From: Lachnospiraceae bacterium
Lineage (GTDB): Bacteria; Bacillota; Clostridia; Lachnospirales; Lachnospiraceae
DNA length: 53,484 nucleotides
Direction: 5' to 3'
NCBI GenBank assembly: GCA_029063085.1
Contig: JAIDOW010000100.1
Location: 1-53,484, forward strand
The translations under genes and the position numbers were made by a program. The notes beneath the pieces were generated by a model. The model was not told the origin of the DNA. It saw only the letters and a list, made by a program, of their open reading frames with translations, and searched no databases. How positions within the stretch are numbered: position 1 is the first letter of the stretch; the number at the start of each line of letters is the position of its first letter. Shown piece after piece: positions 17,483 to 50,893 of the stretch.

Positions 17483-17980
17483 TTATTTGCATGCAATATC
17501 ATTTGATTTGAATAATGTGGTAATGCTGTTGGAAAATTCAGATTCTAATTGCTTGTCCATTGTAAAAATTTTATAGGAAATTCCGCAAATCACATTTAAT
17601 TTATTTTCCTGAAAAATAATATTTAGAAAGATACCATCAATATCATTGGAATTAAGTGATGAATTCGTTTTGGATAAAAAATCTTGTGTCTGACTTTTAC
17701 AGGCTTTTAAAACGATTTTTAACTGTAAAGGGGTTTTCTTTCCTTTGATCAGCAAAAAAAGTTTTTCTTTAGCCAGATGCCATGGAAGATAATCATAATC
17801 CGTTAATCCTATGGAATTGGTTTCTTCTTCGTTAAAAAATTCCTTATGGATATGACCGTTTAAGGAGTACGAGATGTCTGTAGAAAGCTCTGCGGACACG
17901 AATTCATAAGAATCTAATATATTTGTCTGGAATAAAAGCTGCATAAAATTTTTAATGTCTAAGATTTCGACTGCCTGCAT
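17483..17980 (-). CDS. DUF5721-like small protein of unknown function
   Basis: A 165-residue soluble protein without signal peptide. The N-terminus (MQAVEILDIKNFMQLLFQTN) and the pattern around LNGHIHKEFFNEEE recall the DUF5721 family of Lachnospiraceae, from memory. Alternating hydrophobic residues suggest a mixed alpha/beta fold. No catalytic motif is evident. It lies alone upstream of htpG on the same strand, with the CIRCE element between them; its own promoter is not clear, and the stop lies 65 bases before CIRCE. Confidence 0.6.
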   Translation of the reverse strand: MQAVEILDIKNFMQLLFQTNILDSYEFVSAELSTDISYSLNGHIHKEFFNEEETNSIGLTDYDYLPWHLAKEKLFLLIKGKKTPLQLKIVLKACKSQTQDFLSKTNSSLNSNDIDGIFLNIIFQENKLNVICGISYKIFTMDKQLESEFSNSITTLFKSNDIACK

Positions 17981-18193
17981 AAAAATCTCCGTTTCACTTA
18001 AATGTATGTGTTTAGTTTAGCATGATGCCGTAAGATTCGCAAGAGGATTTTATACTGCATCTTGATCTGGATTTGTAGTTGTAGTTTTCGTTCAACTTAA
18101 AGAGAGGCTGTAACTTCTAATTGAATATTGTTAAAAAATACCGTATAATAAAAAGAATGTATAATTGAAAAAATGCAGGGAGGGATATTAATA

Positions 18194-19444
18194 TTGAATA
18201 GCAAAAGGAACAGTATCAAATGGAAACTGCTTTCTATTAGTTTACTGCCGACAACACTGCTTGGAGCAGCAATTTTTATTTTTGGAATTTTTTTAATCTA
18301 TGGCTTGGCTGCTGATAATATACATGATGAACTGGAGACAACAACCTATGTTTTAAAAGGCTGTTTTGATTTGACAGTACGGGGAGATTACACTTATGAG
18401 GATGGGATGCTGAAAAAAGGTTCCATTAATATCAGTGATTCCACCATGCTTTATGATATTAAGAATAAATCAGAGATAGATACTACTATATTCTGGAGAG
18501 ATACCCGGATACTGACTACCGTTGAGAACCAGTATGGTGTGTCAGCAGCAGGTACGAAAGCAGATCAGGAAGTTGCACGTATGGTTCTTGAGGAGGGTGA
18601 GAATTTTTTTGCAAAAAGGATTCAGATCGACGGAAGGGACTTTATCGGGTACTATACACCATTACAAAATGAAGGGGGAGAGATTGTAGGCATGATATTT
18701 GCCGGTAAGCCAACAGAGATTGTTTACCGGAATGTGGGAAAAATCATACTGTGGTTTCTGATTTTTTCCATGCTTGCAATTTTATTTTCTTCTGTCAGCA
18801 GCAGGAAGTTTTCTAAAGGAATGATTAAGGATATTGATTTGATCAAGCAGTATCTTCGTACCATATCGGATGGAAATCTTGTAGGTTCCATAGATAAAAG
18901 GATTACAAAGAGAAGGGACGAGATTGGAGAAATCGGTGTATATGCAGAGAAAATGTGCATAGCTTTAAAAAATCTGGTTGAACTGGATTCCCTGACAGCA
19001 CTTTATAACAGAAGGAGCTGTAATAACCAGTTAAAAGCTTTGATAAGAGAAAATAAGAAATTTACGGTGGTTATGTGTGATATTGATTGGTTTAAGAAAA
19101 TAAATGACCAGTATGGTCATGACTGCGGTGATTATATTTTAACAGGCATATCCGCTATGATACGTGATAGCGTGGACGGCTGTGGATTTGCAAGCCGGTG
19201 GGGAGGAGAAGAATTTTTATTGATTTACGAACTGGATTTGGAAGATGTGAAACAGAAAGTAGAGATGCTGGCAGAACATATCAGAAATTATATTTTTGAA
19301 TATGAGGAGAAGCAGGTCAGGGTGACGATGACTTTTGGAATAAAGGAAATGACAGGAAATGTACCATATGAAGAAGTTATCAAAGAGGCGGATGATAAGC
19401 TGTATACCGGGAAGCGTAATGGAAGAAATCAGATTGTATTTTAA
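18194..19444 (+). CDS. Membrane diguanylate cyclase with Cache sensor
   Basis: A 416-residue c-di-GMP synthase. Transmembrane helices at about 13-38 and 185-205 flank an extracytoplasmic Cache-type domain; a HAMP-like stretch follows (about 215-260), then a GGDEF domain starting LDSLTALYNRR with active site RWGGEEF. The inhibitory RxxD site is absent (residues before the motif are GFAS), so product feedback by that route is unlikely. The frame is open to an ATG at 18173, but GGGAGGG at 18178-18184 fits the TTG at 18194. The Cache domain is clearly homologous to that of the chemoreceptor at 42283 (shared GDYxYExGxLKKG, TxFWxxxRxxTTV). Confidence 0.92.
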   Translation: MNSKRNSIKWKLLSISLLPTTLLGAAIFIFGIFLIYGLAADNIHDELETTTYVLKGCFDLTVRGDYTYEDGMLKKGSINISDSTMLYDIKNKSEIDTTIFWRDTRILTTVENQYGVSAAGTKADQEVARMVLEEGENFFAKRIQIDGRDFIGYYTPLQNEGGEIVGMIFAGKPTEIVYRNVGKIILWFLIFSMLAILFSSVSSRKFSKGMIKDIDLIKQYLRTISDGNLVGSIDKRITKRRDEIGEIGVYAEKMCIALKNLVELDSLTALYNRRSCNNQLKALIRENKKFTVVMCDIDWFKKINDQYGHDCGDYILTGISAMIRDSVDGCGFASRWGGEEFLLIYELDLEDVKQKVEMLAEHIRNYIFEYEEKQVRVTMTFGIKEMTGNVPYEEVIKEADDKLYTGKRNGRNQIVF

Positions 19445-19528
19445 ATGATATTATGTTTTAGGAAAATAATTTTTATTGATGATATCATTGTAAATGAAGG
19501 ATAGGATCAAGCGTATAATGAAATTTGG

Positions 19529-19580
19529 AAGATGGGGATTGCCAGCCCATTACTTTTGCACTGCAAAAGTGGCTGCAAAG
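19529..19580. repeat. Short interspersed repeat with hairpin (copy 1)
   Basis: AAGATGGGGATTGCC (19529-19543) and TGCAAAAGTGG (19562-19572) recur in the same order at 34328-34342 and 34458-34468. ACTTTTGC/GCAAAAGT (19552-19559/19563-19570) form a tight hairpin immediately before the ribosome site of the next gene. Confidence 0.45.
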
Positions 19581-19591
19581 GAGGATGTCAT

Positions 19592-20389
19592 ATGAAGAGG
19601 GATATAGTAAGAAAAATTTGGCTGTTTAACGCAGTTATGGGATTTATGCTGCTTTGTGGATGCAGTAAGGTGCCGGAAAATACAGTTTATTCTTTAGAGG
19701 ATTTAAAAGGAAAGAAAATCGGGGTACAGCTTAAAACTACAGGAGATGTTTATGCATCCGAGATTGAAGGCGCCCAGGTACAGAGGTTTAATAAAGGAAA
19801 AGATGCGATAGTGGCCTTGCAGGCAGGGGAAATCGATGCAGTTATGCTGGATGACGGTCCGGCAAACGTGTTTGCAGGAGAATTTGAAAATATTCGGATT
19901 TTAGAGGAAAGTTATGCCGAGGAAGAGTATGGTTTAGTGGTAAAAAAAGGAAATAAGGAATTATTGGATAAAATAAATGATGCTTTGGATAAGATAGAGG
20001 CAGACGGTACTTTAGAGGAGATTACAAAGAACTGGATTTATGACGGTGCAAGTGAGAGTCTGTATCAGGGAGAAGATAAAGTTTCACATGCGAATGGGAA
20101 GCTGGTAGTGGTGACCAACGCAGAATTCCCACCATATGAAAGTATAGTGGGGGAAGAAGTAACAGGATTTGATATTGATTTGATGAAAGCTGTCTGTGAT
20201 GTGCTGGATATGGAGCTGGAGATAGAAAATATTGCATTTGATTCCATTCTTTCGGCAGTGGACAGGGGGATTGCTGATGTAGGGGCAGCTGCGATGTCAG
20301 TGACGGATGAAAGGCTTAAACAGGTAGATTTTTCAAAAACATATACAACCGCTAAGCAGGTTATTTTAGTGCGGGATAATGGTAAGTAA
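19592..20389 (+). CDS. Circularly permuted amino-acid-binding lipoprotein (SBP family 3)
   Basis: A 265-residue exported lipoprotein (lipobox LCGC, Cys24). Family 3 binding proteins normally run KLVVxTxAxFPPYE...FDxI...ERxKxVDFS...VILV, then SLEDLKGKKIGVQxGTTG...YGxxVKKGNKELLDKIN...NW. Here the second half comes first (34-150), a 19-residue linker follows, then the first half (170-265, starting KLVVVTNAEFPPYE). Ligand residues persist in both: TTG at 49-51, Asp88/89, R241 in TDERLKQVDFS. The normal termini are joined and the hinge connection is cut. AAAGGAGG precedes ATG 19592; the frame is open to 19532. No permease gene is adjacent. Confidence 0.88.
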   Translation: MKRDIVRKIWLFNAVMGFMLLCGCSKVPENTVYSLEDLKGKKIGVQLKTTGDVYASEIEGAQVQRFNKGKDAIVALQAGEIDAVMLDDGPANVFAGEFENIRILEESYAEEEYGLVVKKGNKELLDKINDALDKIEADGTLEEITKNWIYDGASESLYQGEDKVSHANGKLVVVTNAEFPPYESIVGEEVTGFDIDLMKAVCDVLDMELEIENIAFDSILSAVDRGIADVGAAAMSVTDERLKQVDFSKTYTTAKQVILVRDNGK

Positions 20390-20441
20390 GATATGATGAT
20401 TTTATGCAGAACAGTATGGGAAGAGCAGGAGGAATTGATTG

Positions 20442-21713
20442 GTGGAAGAGCTATTTAGATTGCTGAAGAGAGGTGTAACGGCTTCGCATGTAGTGGATTA
20501 TGTAAAAAAGGATTTATTAAAAAATCAATTTCAGGAACTAAATATAGAGGATGAGTGGGAGTTAAAGAAAAATAGTGGGTATTATGTAAACTTATATAGT
20601 TCAGGCTGCGTAGCATTCCGGACAGGGGCGCATATAGATGATTTTCCGGCTTTTCGCATTGCAATGGCGCACAGTGATTTTCCATGTTTTCAGATAAAAC
20701 CGAATCCTATGGTAAAAGGCAGATATTGTGCAAGGCTGAATGTTGAAATTTATGGCGGAATGTATCAGAAATCATGGATAGACCGTCCGCTGGGAGTGGC
20801 TGGCAGGGTGGTTGTAAAAGGAAAAACAGTATTTACTCCGCAAGTTTTACTCTATAAAAGTGACAGACCTCTTTGTATTATCCCAAGTCTTGCCATTCAT
20901 ATGGATAAAGAGTTGAATAAAAAAGGAGCATTGGAGACCGCAAAAGAGCTGGTCCCCCTGGCTGCTCTGTCTGAAGTAGAGGATTTACTGTCAAATGTGG
21001 CTGACAGTCTTAACATTCAAACCAGTGATATATTAGATTATGATTTATATCTGTATAATATGGATGTCCCCATGGTGGCAGGTCTGGATTCTTCCATGAT
21101 AGCAGCTTCGAGACTGGATAATCTGACTTCGGTAGCTTCTATTTTGAATGGGATAAAAAGTTGTGGGAAAATACCGGATCATACAGTTGATTTGATGGTT
21201 GTTTTTGATAATGAGGAAGTGGGAAGTTTAACGAAGCAGGGGGCAGACAGTGAATTCCTTCCTCTGGTGATTGATAAGATTGGTAAAGGGTTACGTGGGA
21301 ACAGGTTTGATAAAAGTAAAATTTTGGAAAAAAGTTTTCTGCTTTCTGTGGATGTTGCCCATGCAAACCATCCCAATTATGAGGAAAAGAGTGATGCGAA
21401 TAACAGAGCATATCTGGGACATGGTATTTCCATTAAACGCAGTGTGGGACAAAAGTATGGAACGACAGCAGAGAGTGCTGCGGTAATAAAACAACTGTGC
21501 AGCAAAGAGAATATCCCATTTTCCATTGCAATCAATAAAACAGGGATTCCAGGTGGAAGCACATTGGGGCCGATTGTCACATCCCATCTTCCGTTTCCGT
21601 GTGCAGATGTGGGAATGCCGATTCTGGCTATGCACTCCGCTGTAGAATTAGGAGCAGTGGCAGATTACGGGGCACTTAAAAATTTTATAAAGACATTTTA
21701 TGAAACAGTATAA
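20442..21713 (+). CDS. M18 family aminopeptidase (ApeB-like)
   Basis: A 423-residue cytosolic dinuclear-zinc aminopeptidase, shorter than and only distantly similar to the M18 enzyme at 10144. Metal and catalytic contexts: AMAHSDFPCF (His), AASRLDNLTSVAS (Asp), VVFDNEEVGSLTKQGADS (Glu pair), SVDVAHANHP (Asp), and LAMHSAVELGAVADY (His). AGCAGGAGGA precedes adjacent TTG (20439) and GTG (20442) codons; either may be the start, the GTG having the better spacing. It begins 53 bases after the permuted binding-protein gene and may share its transcript. Confidence 0.92.
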   Translation: MEELFRLLKRGVTASHVVDYVKKDLLKNQFQELNIEDEWELKKNSGYYVNLYSSGCVAFRTGAHIDDFPAFRIAMAHSDFPCFQIKPNPMVKGRYCARLNVEIYGGMYQKSWIDRPLGVAGRVVVKGKTVFTPQVLLYKSDRPLCIIPSLAIHMDKELNKKGALETAKELVPLAALSEVEDLLSNVADSLNIQTSDILDYDLYLYNMDVPMVAGLDSSMIAASRLDNLTSVASILNGIKSCGKIPDHTVDLMVVFDNEEVGSLTKQGADSEFLPLVIDKIGKGLRGNRFDKSKILEKSFLLSVDVAHANHPNYEEKSDANNRAYLGHGISIKRSVGQKYGTTAESAAVIKQLCSKENIPFSIAINKTGIPGGSTLGPIVTSHLPFPCADVGMPILAMHSAVELGAVADYGALKNFIKTFYETV

Positions 21714-21786: not shown

Positions 21787-21978
21787 ATGAAAGCAGTTGT
21801 GAATAAAGACGGTTGTATCAGTTGCGGTCTATGTGTAAGTACCTGTCCGGAAGTGTTTGCTTTTGATGAAGACGGAAAAGCGGAAGCAAACGGAAAAATG
21901 GATGATTCCAATTTTGCTTCCGCAGAATCTGCAAGGTCAGCCTGCCCGGTGGCGGTAATTGATATTATAGAGGATTAA
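21787..21978 (+). CDS. Single-cluster ferredoxin
   Basis: A 63-residue electron carrier. The N-terminal half holds CISCGLCVSTCPEVF (Cys 10, 13, 16 with Cys 20 before Pro) and the C-terminal half a single CPVAV. This is the pattern of one-cluster [4Fe-4S] ferredoxins such as the Thermotoga type, where three N-terminal and one C-terminal cysteine bind the cluster and the second site has decayed. TTTGGAGG fits the ATG at 21787; the open frame extends further upstream without a ribosome site. Its stop codon overlaps the stop of the convergent permease gene by four bases. Confidence 0.9.
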   Translation: MKAVVNKDGCISCGLCVSTCPEVFAFDEDGKAEANGKMDDSNFASAESARSACPVAVIDIIED

Positions 21979-22838
21979 AAATATTCCGCTAATTTTTTTT
22001 CGATGTGCTGTAATACCATATACAACAGCATGGCAATTACACAAAGGATTAATATGGAAAGCAATACATTGCTCATTTTAAAGGTCTGGGAGCCATATAT
22101 TATCAGGTAGCCCAGGCCTTCTCTTGCTGCAAGGAATTCCCCGATAACAACGCCCACAAGGCATAGACCGATATTGACCTTCATAATGCTGATAATGTTT
22201 GGTACATTGCTTGGAAATACAACAAGTCTGAGACATTGGAAGCGATTTCCTTTCAGGGTTTCGATCAGTTTGAGTTTATCAATATCAACATTTATAAAAC
22301 CGGTGTATATATTCAAAATGCTGCCAAAGATTGCAACACTACAGGCACAGACGATGATGGTAGTTTTGTTAGAGCCAAGCCATACGATGAGTACAGGTGC
22401 CAGTGCAGACTTTGGGAGTGCATTTAAGATGACAAGATAGGGTTCCAATACTTTGGATAGTGTTTCATTCCACCAAAAAAGAGTTGCTATGATCAGGCTT
22501 CCGATGATAACAATGGCAAAGCTGGTCAGTGTTTCGTAAAGCGTAATCCCGATATGATAAAGTAAAGAGCCGTCTTTTAACATGGATATCATTGTGGCAG
22601 ACAGCTTGGAAGGGTAGCAGAAAATGAAATCATTTATGATTCCCTGTTTTGCAGTATACTCCCAGACGGTCAGAAAGCTGATAAAGATGAGTAACTGGTA
22701 GAGTCGGATCAGAATCCGGCCGCGTTTGATCTTTTTGACATATGCTATCTGTGTGTCAGAAACAGGGGCACAGTTTAAGATATCTGGTGTTTTTTTATTC
22801 TCTGATGGTATTGTCTTATCCAAAGTCTTCATTTTCAT
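21975..22838 (-). CDS. ABC transporter permease (SsuC/TauC/ThiX type)
   Basis: A 287-residue inner-membrane permease with a cytosolic N-terminus, about six transmembrane helices, and the EAA coupling loop near IETLKGNRFQCLRLVVFPSN. Belongs to the importer class for nitrate, sulfonates or pyrimidine precursors. GGGAGG fits ATG 22838, giving a 23-base overlap with the ATPase gene; the frame is open to 22889. ATPase and permease form a translationally coupled pair, but the substrate-binding protein expected with them is not in the neighbourhood. Substrate cannot be told from sequence. Confidence 0.88.
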   Translation of the reverse strand: MKMKTLDKTIPSENKKTPDILNCAPVSDTQIAYVKKIKRGRILIRLYQLLIFISFLTVWEYTAKQGIINDFIFCYPSKLSATMISMLKDGSLLYHIGITLYETLTSFAIVIIGSLIIATLFWWNETLSKVLEPYLVILNALPKSALAPVLIVWLGSNKTTIIVCACSVAIFGSILNIYTGFINVDIDKLKLIETLKGNRFQCLRLVVFPSNVPNIISIMKVNIGLCLVGVVIGEFLAAREGLGYLIIYGSQTFKMSNVLLSILILCVIAMLLYMVLQHIEKKLAEYF

Positions 22839-23598
22839 CGTGGACAGCCTCCCAAATCTGATTATAATACGTATTGAATTCGGGTGCATTTCTGGAGGTT
22901 CTCGGTGTGCGGTTCTTTATACTTAAATGGATAGGAATGATTTCTTTGATTGTGCCGGGCCGTTTTGTGAGTACGATAACTCGGTCTGCCATGGAGATTG
23001 CTTCTGCTAAATCATGGGTTACCAATAGTGTACTGATGCCCTTTTCTTTTATGATCGATCCAATATCGTTGGAAACATTCATACGGGTCTGGTAATCCAG
23101 TGCACTAAAAGGTTCATCCAGTAATAAAATTTCGGGAGAGAGAGCCAGGGTACGAATTAAAGCAGCCCGCTGCCGCATACCTCCCGACAGCTGTCTTGGA
23201 TAAGCATTCCTAAAATCCCATAGACCATAAGTCTTTAGCAGATCATCTATAATATCCAGATGTGCTTTGTCCAGTTTATGCTGTATTTCTAATCCGAGAG
23301 TAAGATTCCGGTAAATAGTCCGCCATTCCAGCAGATGATCTTTTTGCAGCATATATCCAATGTTGATGCTTGATTCTTCCAGTGAGTTTCCGTTAATTCG
23401 GATTTCTCCGGAGGAAACGGGAAGTAGTCCGGCAATTAGATTTAACAGAGTGGTTTTGCCGCATCCGCTGGGACCAACAAATGAAATAAATTCATTTTTG
23501 TTTAGTGTAAATGAAATATCTTTAAGTGATGTTGTCTCACAAGATATTGTGTGATAAGTGTAATTAACATTAAAAAATTCTAGCAATGGTATTCCCAA
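22816..23598 (-). CDS. ABC transporter ATPase (SsuB/TauB type)
   Basis: A 260-residue nucleotide-binding subunit. Walker [11 protein letters not shown]-loop GYMLQKDHLLEW, signature LSGGMRQRAALIRTLA, Walker B ILLLDEPFSALD and switch His VTHDLAEA are all present, so it should hydrolyse ATP. Start is TTG with AAGGAAG 10 bases upstream. It is the first gene of a two-gene operon with the overlapping permease. The family imports sulfonates, taurine, nitrate or thiamine precursors; the lack of a binding-protein gene leaves the substrate open. Confidence 0.92.
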   Translation of the reverse strand: MGIPLLEFFNVNYTYHTISCETTSLKDISFTLNKNEFISFVGPSGCGKTTLLNLIAGLLPVSSGEIRINGNSLEESSINIGYMLQKDHLLEWRTIYRNLTLGLEIQHKLDKAHLDIIDDLLKTYGLWDFRNAYPRQLSGGMRQRAALIRTLALSPEILLLDEPFSALDYQTRMNVSNDIGSIIKEKGISTLLVTHDLAEAISMADRVIVLTKRPGTIKEIIPIHLSIKNRTPRTSRNAPEFNTYYNQIWEAVHDENEDFG

Positions 23599-37078: not shown

Positions 37079-38134
37079 TTGAAACAGTTTTTCGGAATGA
37101 GTCAGAGTGGAAATCTGCAAGAAGCAGTCAAGGGGTTGCATAACCCCCAATTTATTATGCTGTTATCTAATAACGACCAGTTTGAAGCACATGTGAAGAA
37201 ACTGGAAGAACTTTATCCCCAAATCCCCAGCATTGGGTGTATTGGAATGAGCTACGACACAAAGGTAGTGGAAAAAGGTGTCGGTGTTGTTGCATTTTAT
37301 GACGGAGTCACTGCAACTGCAAATGTACTGGAAGAGGTATCAGTCATGCCAGTGAAATACATTAATCGGCTGGAACGGGACGTGCACACCATAAACGGTT
37401 CGTCCAACGATACGATCTGTATTGACTTTTGCTGCGGCAATGATGCGTGTGTGCTGACCACCATACATAGTGTCCTTAAGCATAAAAATATTTCGCTGGT
37501 CGGCGGAACCGGTGATGGAGGAAAGGTGTCGGCAAATGGAAAGATTTATTCTGATGCGGTGGCGTATGGATTGGTTAAGAACAATCATGGAAGAGTAAAG
37601 GCCTACAAGGAAAATATCTACAGGCAGATGGGAAATTATCGTTTCATTGCTTCTAACACAGACAAGGCAAATTATATTCTTGGAAGGTTGAATGGAGTTC
37701 CTGCCAAACAGGTCTATCAGGATATCCTGCATGTGACGGAAAAGGAGATATTGACGCAGACCTTTAAAAATCCCTTTGGAAAAATCAATGGAGAGGATAC
37801 TTGTATCATATCCATTAAAGAAGTGAGCGGCAATTCGTTAACCTGTTTTAGGCAGGTAAATGATTCAGATGTACTCATTATGCTGGAATTAGGAGATTAT
37901 AAGGCAATCGTGAGAAATACGATTCAGACAATCCGCAGGGATTTTCCTAAAATATCAGCCGTATTTTCTGTGAATTGTCTGTTCCGGTATTTACTGTTTA
38001 CAGAGAATCATTATATGCAGGAATACCTGAATGAGATGGCAGTGCTTGGAAATCATGCCGGTCTGGTAGGATATGGAGAGCATTATAATAATCGATTTGT
38101 CAACCAGTCTATGACTTGCGTTGTGTTTGAATAA
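37079..38134 (+). CDS. FIST domain sensor protein
   Basis: A 351-residue cytosolic protein built of FIST N and FIST C domains and nothing else. FIST N covers about 20-200 ([44 protein letters not shown]); FIST C covers 210-340 ([50 protein letters not shown]). FIST domains are proposed small-ligand sensors, often for amino acids, found with chemotaxis and other signalling proteins. Starts with TTG after AGAGAGGAT. The chemoreceptor gene begins 14 bases downstream, so it probably senses for that receptor. Confidence 0.9.
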
Positions 38135-38148
38135 TTGGAGGAATGGAT

Positions 38149-39072
38149 ATGATAATAAAGAAAAAATCTCAGGACAAATCTAAAAGCTTGTATCCGGTAT
38201 TGTATGTAATAGGGAGTCTTAAGGACTATCATCATGAGCTTGTGCAAAGCGAGGTTTCCTCTTTGTCGGAACTGAGCATGGTGAGCAAATCTTTTGGCAG
38301 CGTGCTTAATGAATCTGAAAACTTTAAAGATACGTTGAGAGGCTTTGGAGAAACATTTTCAAATATTAATACGGTATCAGGGCAGTTTGCTGCTGTGAAG
38401 GATAATATTTCCCAATCTGTGGTCCAGGCACAGGGGGAAATCGAACAGCTTAAGCAAAGCTCTCTTATGGTAGAAACACATTTTGAAGAAATGCAGAATA
38501 CTTTTGAAGAATTCCAGAAGTCATTAAAGGAAATTAAAGGCTGCATGGGAAAAATCGTTTCTATTGCAGATCAGACCAATATCCTTTCGCTCAATGCGTC
38601 CATTGAAGCTGCCAGGGCAGGGGAGCAGGGAAAAGGCTTTGCAGTGGTTGCTGAGGAAGTAAAGAATTTGTCAGATGAAATCAAAAATCTTGTGGCAGAG
38701 GTGGATTCCAGCATTGAGGATGTGGAGCAGGGAACAGAGCGTCTTAATACCAGTATAGGGACTTCTCATGAGGCTTTAGCGAAGAGCCTTTCCAAGGTGG
38801 AGGATACCTATGAAACATTTGACAGTATTACACAGGCGGCAGAAGGAACAACAGCTGTGCAGGCAGAAATTTCCCAGGTGGTTGACGATTCCAAAGCCTC
38901 GCTTCAGACGCTGTATGATTTTTTTGAAAATACGAAGAGGCAGTATCAGGAAGTCGTAAAGCATATCAATCGCGCAAGCAATATGGGAACGACGAAGAGC
39001 GCCATGTTCGAGGATATTGACAATATGCTTTCGCAGATTCCCCCGATCATAGAAGAGTATAACAACGATTGA
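38149..39072 (+). CDS. Soluble methyl-accepting chemotaxis protein
   Basis: A 307-residue chemoreceptor without signal peptide, transmembrane helix or own sensor domain. The N-terminal 110 residues are a helical region, then coiled-coil signalling domain with the hairpin tip [20 protein letters not shown] followed by [17 protein letters not shown], the contact site for CheA/CheW. GGAGGA fits the ATG at 38149 better than that at 38143. Directly follows the FIST gene, which I take as its ligand-sensing partner. No cheA, cheW or flagellar genes in the window. Confidence 0.92.
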
Positions 39073-41878: not shown

Positions 41879-42286
41879 ATGCATATTGTTGAAGAGGATC
41901 AATATAAGGTGTCCTGCCGTGTGGACAGGCTGGACTTAAAATCCCATGGGATTACTGTGAACGATCTGATTAATCGTACTCCTCTTGGGCGTATTTTTAT
42001 TAAAAAGGCGGTGGATCTTTCAAAAGGGAGTACAGATTATGAATGGCCGGGGTGCGCATTATCCATGCAGATGGATTTTTATCAGGATGGTGTTGTACTG
42101 GTATTTTCAGAGAGGATTGATGATTATGTGTATAATCTGAAACAGTCTGTTCTGGCCCTGCCAAGAGAACAGGCAGACAGATTGAGTAAAATGATCGCAA
42201 TGATTTCTGTATCAGAAGAAGGAAAAGCCAGAGAAATCATTCGGGAATTTGAGAGCAATATAGAGGAGGCAAAACAGCAATTATGA
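41879..42286 (+). CDS. MecA-like adaptor protein
   Basis: A 135-residue soluble protein. Its N-terminal 75 residues follow the pattern of the MecA/NegA adaptor N-terminal domain ([46 protein letters not shown]); MecA N-terminal domains read similarly. The usual C-terminal ClpC-binding domain is missing, replaced by about 55 residues of predicted helix. If it is an adaptor, it would present a substrate to a Clp ATPase; I hold this loosely. Preceded by GGAAAGG, and its stop overlaps the next ATG (ATGA). Confidence 0.5.
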
Positions 42287-43992
42287 AAAAGGGCATTAAG
42301 ATTACATCAAAGATTATTATAATGGTTTTGTTCCCGTTATTTTTTATCAGTATGACAGGAATCATCATGGGGGGAAACAATCAGGAAGAAATAGCCTACA
42401 GGCTGATTGAGGAGAAGCTGGCGGCAGTTGCAATGAATGTGAATACTCTTTATGATATCTATGGAGAAGGGGATTATTCTTATGAGGAGGGAACATTAAA
42501 AAAGGGGGAGAAGAATCTTTCCGAGGATTGTTCCCTGGTTGATCAGATTAAAAAAGAGTCAGGAGTGGAAGTAACACTTTTTTGGGATAATGTTAGGGCT
42601 ATTACCACGGTAACAGATTCAAAAGGGGAACGTGCTACCGGTACAACGATCGATGCAGATTTTGCAGAGGATATATTAAACGGAAAGAGTGATAAATATT
42701 TTACAAAGGATATAGAAATTGCAGGGGCAGCATATTGTGGCTTTTACATACCAATGAAACAGGATAATGGAGATATCGTTGGACTGGTTTTTACGGGACG
42801 TGCAAAAGAGGATGTTGAAAAAGAGATTAAAAAAAGTCAGATGAAAATGGCTGGCGGAATGATGATTATCTTTATACTTACTTTTGCGGTCATAGCTATA
42901 TTGGTGCAAAAAATCATAGCAGCATTGAAGCACACAATTGAACGTTTAGATGATGTGGCAACTGGAAAGCTGGATTTTGAAATGCATTCCAGAATGATGC
43001 AGCGTGCAGATGAGATAGGAGAAATGTCCCAGTCTATTCAGGGTCTGATCAATGAGTTTAAATCTATCATAACAGATCTGAAAGTCAGTTCGGATGAATT
43101 GGATCACTTTTCTAATGAATTTGAGATGTCTTTTGATACGATTGCAGAGAACATTTCCAATATTAATATAGCGGTAGATGAAGTTGCAAATGGTGCCACT
43201 TCCCAGGCAGGAGAAACTATGGAGGCAAATAACGAAATCGCTCATATGGGAAGTTCTATTGAGGCTACTGCGGATGATATCCAAGTATTAAACCAGAATT
43301 CGGTAAAGATGAAGAATTATTCAGAGTCAGCAGAAGCCACATTGAATGAACTGGTAGTTATTTCGGAACAGACAAGCCGGGCGATTGATGAAGTCAGGGA
43401 ACAGACGAATCTGACAAATGAATCCGCACAGGCAATACAGACAGCTACAGATATGATTACCAATATTGCGGCACAGACGAATATGCTGTCGTTAAATGCC
43501 AGTATTGAGGCGGCAAGAGCAGGAGAGAATGGAAAGGGATTTGCAGTGGTTGCAGATGAGATACGCAATCTTTCTGAGCAGTCAAGGACTTCAGCAGAAG
43601 AGATTCTGACAATTGTTTCTGAATTGATCAGAAATTCCAATACCAGTGTGGAGGTAATGAATCGTGTTTCCGGCAGTGTGCAGGAGCAAAATGCTAAGTT
43701 GGCCAATACAAAGGAAATGTTTATTTCATTAAATAATGAAATATCGTCGGTATCCATGGGTGTAAACAGGATTCGACAGAGTATAGCGGATTTAGGAGAT
43801 ATGAAAGATTCTGTTATGGTGAGTGTAGAGCAATTAGCTGCAATTGCTGAGGAAAATGCAGCATCTACAGAAGAAACATCGGCTTCTATGACGGAACTTA
43901 GGGATATTGTAAAACAATGTCATGATGAAACACAGAAGCTGGTTAAGATTTCTAATGATCTCAATGCCCATACAAAGCATTTCAGATTGTAA
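42283..43992 (+). CDS. Transmembrane chemoreceptor with Cache sensor
   Basis: A 569-residue methyl-accepting chemotaxis protein. Transmembrane helices at about 9-27 and 190-212 enclose a single Cache-type domain ([47 protein letters not shown]). Then HAMP (213-265) and a long signalling domain with tip [20 protein letters not shown]. The Cache domain is homologous to that of the diguanylate cyclase at 18194. Start ATG overlaps the MecA-like stop by four bases. Last gene of the OPT operon, so its ligand may be the OPT substrate. Confidence 0.94.
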
Positions 43993-49033: not shown

Positions 49034-50893
49034 TTATTTGGACTTTATTTCTTTCCAGAGTTCATTGTAGATATAGTCGGCATCTTCCCCTAAATACTGA
49101 TAAGTTTCCAGATTATTATATTGGGAAAGGTCAGGAAATGCAATCTGGCTGTTACGGATATCTTCATCTTCTATCAGTTTTCGGGCTTCAGCATTAGGTG
49201 TGGAATAGGTGATATATTCAAAGTTCATAAGTGCAATATCCGGGCGGCAGAGGAAATTAATAAATTTTTCTGCATTTTCTTTGTTGGGAGCATTTTTTAA
49301 AATGCACCAGGAATCAATCCATACATTGGTTCCTTCTTTTGGAATCACATATTCCAGATCTTCATTTTCCCTTTGGCTGTAAATAGCTTCTCCAGAATAT
49401 ATGACACCAATAGCCGCCTCATTTCCGATCATTTTATCCCTTACCTGATCCACAACATATGCCTGTGTCAAAGGTTTTTGTTCGATCAGTGCTTCTTTTG
49501 CCTCTTCCAATTCTTTTTCATTGGTGGAATTCATGGAGTATCCCAGCTTTTTTAGTGCCACCATGAAAGCGTCTCTTACGGAATCCTGCATTAGAATATT
49601 ATCAGTATATTGTTTATCCCAGAGAACGTCCCAGGAATCAATCGGTTCCGTTACCATGGATTTATTATAAAGAATGCCGACAGTGCCTACACAATAGGGG
49701 ACACTGTATTTGTTGTCCGGATCAAAGTCTTTGGATTGTTCCATATAATTGCTGTCAATATTCTTGATGTTTGGAATGTTGCTAAAATCAATTTGGGCCA
49801 GTAAGTCTTTTTCGATCATTTTCTGAATCATATAGTCGGAAGGACAAACGATATCATATTCGGCAGCACCGCTTTCAATTTTAGGATACATATTTTCATT
49901 GGTTTCATATTCATCATATATGACTTCTATTCCTGTTTCTTCTTGGAATATTTTCAAAGCTTCCGGATCCAGATATTCCCCCCAGTTATAAACGATAACC
50001 TGACCGCCTTCTTTATCCTTTGACAGATTACTGTAAATCAGAGTGCTTATAACAAGAATGGATATAACGGCGAATGCTACAGCTTTTTGGGGGAGCGTGT
50101 GCCGCTTTTCTTTGGAAATAATCTGTTTCTCCTTTTTTGCCGGAGCAAGGTTTATAAATAATAACAGAACAAACACAGTTGCAAATATGATAGTGGACAG
50201 TGCATACATTTCTGGTTTGATTCCTTTGCGGACTTCGGTATATATTTTAGTGGACAGTGTATCTACACCGGCTCCTTTTGTAAAATGAGTGATCACGAAA
50301 TCATCTAACGACATGGTAAATGCCATTAAAAATCCAGACAGGATCCCCGGCAAAATATCAGGAAATATTACCTTAAAGAAGGCATACACCGGAGAAGCAC
50401 CAAGGTCCAAGGCAGCTTCATAAGTATTTGGGTTCAGCTGGCGGAATTTTGGCATTACATTTAGGATTACGTATGGAATATTAAATGTAATATGGGCGAG
50501 TAAAATGGTATGCATTCCAAACCGGAATCCGAAGCTGATAAATAGCAGCATGAGAGAGATACCGGTTACGATATCTGCATTTAACATCGGAATATTATTG
50601 ATTCCAAGTAAAACTGTACGGGAATGTGACTTCATATTGCTTAGGGCAATACAGGTAATGGTTCCAATTATGGTAGCGATTACAGAGGATACGATAGCAA
50701 TAAAAAGAGTATTGTAAAGAGCCTCCATAATGGCCTGGTTCTGGAAAAGAGCCCGGTACCATCCAGTAGTAAAGCCGCCCCATTTTGCCCTTGTTCTGCT
50801 GTTATTAAAGGAAAGAACCATTAGCATGACAATAGGAGCATATAGAAAAATGAATATAATAGCGATATAAAACCGTTCTAAAAATCGTTTCAT
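49034..50893 (-). CDS. potCD: Fused polyamine ABC permease and substrate-binding protein
   Basis: A 619-residue fusion. Residues 1-265 are PotC permease with six transmembrane helices and the EAA loop EAALDLGASPVYAFFKVIFPD. A seventh helix at about 270-292 leads to the outside, where residues 300-619 form a PotD-type spermidine/putrescine-binding protein (VIVYNWGEYLDPE, YDIVCPSDYMIQKM, YSVPYCVGTVGILYN, INFLCRPDIA). The binding protein is thereby tethered to its transporter. Stop of potB and this ATG overlap (TGATG). GGGAGG lies 13 bases upstream. Confidence 0.94.
   Translation of the reverse strand: MKRFLERFYIAIIFIFLYAPIVMLMVLSFNNSRTRAKWGGFTTGWYRALFQNQAIMEALYNTLFIAIVSSVIATIIGTITCIALSNMKSHSRTVLLGINNIPMLNADIVTGISLMLLFISFGFRFGMHTILLAHITFNIPYVILNVMPKFRQLNPNTYEAALDLGASPVYAFFKVIFPDILPGILSGFLMAFTMSLDDFVITHFTKGAGVDTLSTKIYTEVRKGIKPEMYALSTIIFATVFVLLLFINLAPAKKEKQIISKEKRHTLPQKAVAFAVISILVISTLIYSNLSKDKEGGQVIVYNWGEYLDPEALKIFQEETGIEVIYDEYETNENMYPKIESGAAEYDIVCPSDYMIQKMIEKDLLAQIDFSNIPNIKNIDSNYMEQSKDFDPDNKYSVPYCVGTVGILYNKSMVTEPIDSWDVLWDKQYTDNILMQDSVRDAFMVALKKLGYSMNSTNEKELEEAKEALIEQKPLTQAYVVDQVRDKMIGNEAAIGVIYSGEAIYSQRENEDLEYVIPKEGTNVWIDSWCILKNAPNKENAEKFINFLCRPDIALMNFEYITYSTPNAEARKLIEDEDIRNSQIAFPDLSQYNNLETYQYLGEDADYIYNELWKEIKSK

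Follow-up and report, generated by a model that had tools for sequence, protein, structure and literature searches.

Among bacterial receptors, the family 3 solute-binding proteins (SBPs) have been studied well, and biosensors are often built on them. Natural circular permutation is already known from other SBPs, namely the glycine-betaine-binding type II proteins OpuAC and ProX and the 'Type Ic' protein TpMglB-2 (Tp0684), which is described as membrane-tethered, able to bind its ligand and to close, and as having relatives in Gram-positive gut bacteria (PMC4990184). The pairing of an SBP with a c-di-GMP enzyme has precedents as well. In PMC7423604, the ArtI-STM1987 pair of Salmonella is cited as such a case whose mechanism is not fully characterised, and direct signalling by an SBP is argued against in Pseudomonas putida. 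PMC9993111 describes NspS-MbaA of Vibrio and Sinorhizobium as an extracytoplasmic SBP acting with a membrane c-di-GMP enzyme.

The DNA analysed here, called the window, is a stretch of 53,484 nucleotides from a Lachnospiraceae bacterium (contig JAIDOW010000100.1), in which an SBP gene with the following features lies directly downstream of a cyclase gene.

18173..19444, + strand: sCache_3_3-GGDEF diguanylate cyclase of 423 aa, proposed as the signalling partner (Pfam, motif, linkage)
19552..19570, + strand: ACTTTTGCACTGCAAAAGT, a short inverted repeat in the gap that separates the cyclase and SBP genes (read from the sequence)
19580..19584, + strand: ribosome-binding site GGAGG, which backs the ATG start at 19592
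19592..20389, + strand: circularly permuted family 3 solute-binding lipoprotein, open reading frame of 265 aa (Pfam, phmmer, AlphaFold)
19592..19663, + strand: lipoprotein signal peptide and lipobox with Cys24, invariant in a 17-sequence alignment
19685..20044, + strand: residues 32-151, equivalent to the C-terminal half of ordinary family 3 proteins
20045..20092, + strand: residues 152-167, a linker of about 16 residues that bridges the former chain ends (C- to N-terminus), the least constrained region
20093..20377, + strand: residues 168-262, equivalent to the N-terminal half of ordinary family 3 proteins (Pfam profile 1-93; AncQR 7-104; TmArgBP domain 1, 35% identity)

The canonical family 3 SBPs TmArgBP, E. 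coli GlnBP and AncQR share with the window protein their homologous halves, the same pocket residues and the two-lobed type II fold, which is predicted for the window protein, whereas in the latter the halves are reversed, the new ends should lie at the hinge and the old ends are joined by a linker. TpMglB-2 is likewise a naturally permuted, membrane-tethered SBP, but it is a type I (cluster B) sugar binder with another fold class and another cut. ArtI-STM1987 and NspS-MbaA resemble the proposed pair in that an extracytoplasmic SBP works in trans with a c-di-GMP enzyme of the membrane; they differ in being Gram-negative systems with SBPs of canonical order, and ArtI is an importer subunit. Judging from the NCBIfam matches, ArtI is a family 3 SBP too, and the receptor domains of STM1987 and MbaA differ from that of the window cyclase. 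GlnPQ-type importers (6h30) have an SBD-permease layout in common with the fused permuted members described below, but the SBDs of GlnP are in canonical order and fused to a permease, while the window gene has no permease. In the open-access literature, none of the matches listed described a family 3 SBP with permuted halves. As far as that literature shows, three things are new: a permuted clade within family 3, a second cut point in this clade, and the pairing of the clade with a cyclase.

The window protein is a circularly permuted variant of family 3 and not an ordinary member. The Pfam profile SBP_bac_3 (PF00497) matched two separate segments of it (E 6.2e-34), and the stronger match aligned residues 171-263 with profile positions 1-93; the score of 117 bits, where 26.4 is required, with both halves matched, places the protein in family 3. 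In the phmmer alignment with AncQR (4zv1), chain residues 7-104 corresponded to window residues 166-262 and chain residues 107-231 to window residues 30-149. The half order is therefore swapped: the C-terminal half comes first, and each half finds its homologue at the other end of the canonical relative. The order was colinear in six other species of the genus at 62-65% identity. A preliminary description of this DNA had proposed a natural circular permutation, which was borne out by Pfam, phmmer to AncQR and the colinear relatives; its half boundaries (34-150 and 170-265) were correct within a few residues, and its placement of the cut at the hinge agreed with the AncQR alignment, the AlphaFold model and the superposition of the halves on TmArgBP, which put it near a lobe crossing. 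Among named NCBIfam families (GlnH, ArtI, ArtJ, ArgT and others), 15 matched the window protein and none exceeded its cut-off. The four permuted proteins scanned with NCBIfam reached no cut-off of a binding-protein model, the fused one reaching that of a permease domain model, and the permuted group therefore seems to be without a model of its own there.

AlphaFold, which had been suggested as a check, predicted one confident fold for the window protein (pLDDT 94.0, pTM 0.86), and in a half-by-half superposition each half fitted its TmArgBP counterpart with 33-36% identity per half. A Foldseek search with the whole chain gave TM-scores of about 0.2-0.5 in the best 50 rows, with the tandem SBD1-SBD2 of 6h30 as the top hit at an rmsd of about 20 Å. 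These low scores were not taken as a sign of another fold, since a sequential aligner is expected to score a permuted chain poorly. R241 and D87 were invariant among 120 aligned permuted proteins (120/120), T50 was found in 114/120, and G51 was replaced by A in 5/120. The ligand residues named earlier thus held for R241 and the TTG region, whereas the invariant Asp turned out to be D87 instead of Asp88/89. The Arg, Asp and Thr/Gly residues that mark the family 3 pocket are all present, and from mapping to GlnBP we take them to form an alpha-amino-acid pocket.

Both halves are under purifying selection, with a median pN of 0.19-0.22 against a median pS of 0.73-0.80, and the median dN/dS, calculated from unsaturated pairs only, was 0.08-0.11 in the halves as compared with 0.31 in the linker (residues 152-167). 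These values, the invariant pocket residues and the confident predicted fold uphold the earlier view that the gene is functional and not decayed. They also bear on the suspicion that the gene is an assembly error or a decaying two-fragment pseudogene, for which the unusual order speaks and nothing else was found. With the same arrangement in 9 distinct cyclase loci and 124 transporter-linked proteins, dN far below dS in both halves and a confident fold, this explanation has a negligible probability, and misassembly and pseudogene were both rejected on the order in relatives, selection and fold.

The permuted group is large and widespread, and the window protein is no lone oddity. Its own genome encodes a second permuted SBP, joined to a permease in one chain of 495 aa (L002:994-2481, contig C62) and with an ATPase gene just after it, in addition to two canonical family 3 SBP-permease pairs. 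Within the genus, a permuted match at E<=1e-40 was found in 12 of 26 genomes, and the single-domain, cyclase-linked form in 7/26, own genome included. Across 392 genomes of the order, 53 had a match at E<=1e-30, and sorting by reading the rows showed that 40/53 were colinear over most of the query; the remainder comprised a second-cut protein (G154), a canonical triple tandem (G379) and 11/53 matches to the C-terminal half only, which behave as canonical proteins do. At the level of the phylum, only 4 of 398 genomes matched at E<=1e-30, three of the four from the same family. In a scan of named genomes, the best 80 of 544 confirmed loci came chiefly from Lachnospiraceae, Oscillospiraceae and further Clostridia, a few of them carrying different labels. 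Classified with half-profiles, 76 of the best 80 were single C-N units: 49 with a permease <=400 bp downstream, 25 fused to one, and two (L074, L075) that lack a permease but are preceded by a GGDEF gene. The remaining four were CN-CN-permease (L092), CN-CN-CN-permease (L120), a frame-split locus (L094) and, in canonical order, an NC-NC tandem (L152).

The database search proposed for the same half order found it in 133 distinct single-copy proteins, a number that does not show how frequent this order is within family 3, because the searches started from the window protein; every match list came from a query with this protein or its alignment, which favours permuted forms. From this set, which includes the window protein, identical sequences were removed and nothing else. 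L074, on the same contig as G016, was counted once; L032 and L052, which one deduplication left as two, are a single locus. L103 and L094, with split reading frames, were not taken as single C-N frames. Counting a permease as linked when fused or <=400 bp downstream, and a GGDEF gene when <=400 bp upstream on the same strand, 70 proteins had an adjacent permease, 54 were fused to one, nine had an upstream GGDEF gene without a permease, and none had neither. The neighbours of all 40 colinear order genomes were read, and the last nine read each have a permease fused or adjacent. One fixed half order in family 3, as assumed before, is thus contradicted by a large permuted group.

No family 3-type permease or ATPase gene was found beside the SBP gene in the window or in its eight cyclase-linked relatives, one of which (L044) is a 4.7-kb contig, and the absence of an adjacent permease noted earlier is confirmed. 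In this respect the protein departs from an ABC-importer SBP, which is encoded with or fused to such a permease and ATPase. The ABC genes at 21975-23598 of the window are of another type (PF00528 permease and ATPase), presumably NitT/TauT-like. What adjoins the SBP gene is a cyclase gene with Pfam matches to GGDEF (6e-35) and sCache_3_3 (7.2e-25), whose product has a transmembrane segment at ~18-50, an extracytoplasmic single Cache domain, a second transmembrane segment at ~186-211 and a cytoplasmic GGDEF domain with the motif RWGGEEF. An sCache-GGDEF gene is located directly upstream, on the same strand, in 9/9 permease-less permuted SBP loci: the window, G025, G009, G016, G017, G020, G022, HAN041 (Lachnospiraceae, L075) and G649 (L214). 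The sCache_3_3 domain was assigned by Pfam in the window and G649 and by similarity to the window cyclase in the others. In all nine loci, a conserved SBP gene thus adjoins the gene of a membrane cyclase that combines an intact RWGGEEF motif with an extracytoplasmic domain; the motif was also present in three unlinked cyclases (12/12 aligned). At an additional locus, in G003, the cyclase runs off the contig end and the 3′ end of a 72%-identical SBP gene begins another contig, so that the pair probably falls in an assembly gap. The receptor role hinted at earlier is strengthened by this linkage, which was absent from the preliminary description.

As no transporter is encoded beside the SBP and the gene of a signalling enzyme adjoins it, the window protein is probably a nutrient sensor. 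We propose, with a probability of roughly 0.7, that a transporter-type permuted amino-acid-binding lipoprotein has been co-opted as the ligand sensor of the sCache-GGDEF cyclase encoded next to it. The half order, the single predicted fold, the pocket residues, purifying selection, membership in one clade and linkage to a motif-intact cyclase support this proposal, in which the coupling to the cyclase is suggested by gene order and phylogeny. The SBP could instead serve an unlinked permease, such as the fusion on contig C62, with the cyclase adjacent by chance. Permease linkage in 124/133 distinct single-copy permuted proteins and the occurrence, in the same genome, of a permuted SBP-permease fusion with an ATPase and two ordinary family 3 SBP-permease pairs are in keeping with such an orphan transport protein. 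However, G009 (99% complete) and G022 (95%) gave no match to the usual fused permease, of the C62 type, at E<=1e-25, and therefore the SBP is kept there without that permease; together with the cyclase linkage in 9/9 loci and the clade-specific substitutions described below, this makes an orphan transport role unlikely. In G025, the closest match to the fused permease was only 33%.

The cyclase's own Cache domain may bind a ligand alone, which argues against the proposed sensor, as does the persistence of the cyclase without the SBP in G019, G023 and G683 (completeness 98, 85 and 83%). In these genomes no match to the window SBP was found at E<=1e-15 and no SBP gene adjoins the cyclase, and therefore the cyclase can do without the SBP. 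The two genes might then share only their regulation, the cyclase sensing its own Cache ligand and the SBP scavenging or buffering an amino acid without contact between them. Against this stand the nine permease-less permuted SBPs, none of which lacks the cyclase (0/9), and the persistence of the pair where the outer neighbours vary, as in several of the nine loci (L041, L075, L214), and we regard shared regulation as improbable, even more so than an orphan transport role. The cyclase is rare, being found in 5/397 sampled genomes of the family at E<=1e-40, and one of these five (G570) is a chemotaxis receptor. A further point against the proposed sensor is that the window genes are 147 bp apart, as compared with <=98 bp in the other eight linked loci, with the inverted repeat between them. 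The folding z-score of the 171 nt around the repeat was -2.09. A promoter/terminator scan of 17950-20600 called no terminator between the two genes, the inverted repeat included, and promoter-like sites in this region showed no excess over shuffled sequence. Control of the SBP gene by a riboswitch was also considered and rejected, since Rfam returned one tRNA and nothing else from the whole window.

The nine cyclase-linked SBPs formed one clade in the quick tree (SH-aLRT 100), and the five members used in the careful tree were supported at 100/99. The clade is nested among permuted transporter SBPs, beside Oscillospiraceae proteins still encoded with permease and ATPase genes, and the earlier supposition that the permutation arose at the window gene is not supported. 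The quick tree treated L094, which seems to carry a frameshift, wrongly as canonical; in the careful tree, L094 and 13 other long-branch or distant rows were left out and the permuted rows were thinned to 36. An origin of the window SBP by breaking off from a permease was rejected because its C-terminus coincides with that of relatives whose permease is encoded separately, and the nearest rows in the quick tree mostly have such a separate permease gene.

Residues Q46, D87, N176, F179, F216 and R241 were present in 9/9 cyclase-linked SBPs. Ten positions were near-fixed in the clade (>=8/9) and rare (<=10%) in 111 other permuted proteins: L86, D88, E97, W148, G152, K163, S184, D206, R225 and A234. 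At the position of A234, 109/111 of the others had G, and R at the position of R225 occurred in 0/111. L86, D88, S184 and A234 are, as we assume from the GlnBP mapping, in or beside the pocket, and the changes near the pocket may imply a different ligand, which counts against the proposed sensor; E97, D206 and R225 may belong to a surface that contacts a partner.

In the proposed mechanism, the lipoprotein SBP would be tethered outside the membrane, where it would close on an L-alpha-amino acid or a close relative. The liganded SBP could dock on the extracytoplasmic Cache domain of the cyclase, and docking would change c-di-GMP synthesis, in the manner suggested for the ArtI-STM1987 and NspS-MbaA pairs. 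The two chain ends should be at the hinge, which would place the membrane anchor there; any consequence for signalling is speculation. The SBP-cyclase pair is a concrete candidate for a route by which gut Clostridia could feed amino-acid sensing into c-di-GMP.

A second cut was found in two proteins (L050:7823-8743 and L051:7565-8455), in which the last part of the C-terminal half comes first, followed by the N-terminal half and then the first part of the C-terminal half. With one of them as query, further colinear members were identified in 10/295 genomes of the order (L192-L201). In the resulting 12 proteins the cut lies inside lobe 2, permease and ATPase genes follow in 12/12, and AlphaFold on 12 sequences gave a pLDDT of 86.9 and a pTM of 0.78. 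Two cut points having been found, the family is permuted at two places. For the main permutation, the careful tree needs five changes (bootstrap range 4-6), and the starred branches force only two. Tandems of binding domains joined to permeases of the same family occur in canonical order (L184:2410-5313, G379, NC-NC-NC) and in permuted order (L092:1715-4009, CN-CN; L120:2297-5404, CN-CN-CN; L224:3112-5451, G322, two domains). Since tandems exist in both orders, permutation via tandem duplication is plausible. More tentatively, at somewhat under even odds, a widespread, unnamed family 3 SBP clade may have been permuted at two places, and one lineage in gut Clostridia may have lost its permease and become the dedicated ligand-binding half of a new c-di-GMP receptor made up of a lipoprotein and an sCache-GGDEF protein; in this receptor, the hinge-placed ends and anchor would couple lobe closure to the cyclase. 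This natural set, with canonical, permuted and differently permuted orders that are single, tandem, permease-fused or beside one permease family, offers material on how permutation arises and on what the placement of chain ends does to opening, closing and docking.

Several other genes were observed. At L052:7653-10385 (G045), a permuted SBP, a permease and an ATPase are joined in one 910-aa chain, which is most of an importer. The permuted SBP gene of HAN041 is followed by a second GGDEF gene (L075:4864-5940) and thus lies between two cyclase genes. A chemotaxis-receptor-like gene (L145:1672-3780) is located directly upstream of a permuted SBP still encoded with permease and ATPase genes. In the genome of the window, a 971-aa open frame (C23:18134-19453; L005, L006) carries two family 3 binding domains and may be a Venus-flytrap sensor. 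Within the window itself, a chemotaxis receptor with sCache_3_3 at 42283-43992 shares 27-31% identity with the relatives of the cyclase and has no SBP gene beside it, and a FIST-domain protein is followed by an MCP-signalling protein at 37079-39072. One open reading frame at 49034-50893, presumably of the polyamine type, combines a permease (PF00528) with a C-terminal SBP_bac_8 domain and is adjoined by permease- and ATPase-like open reading frames.
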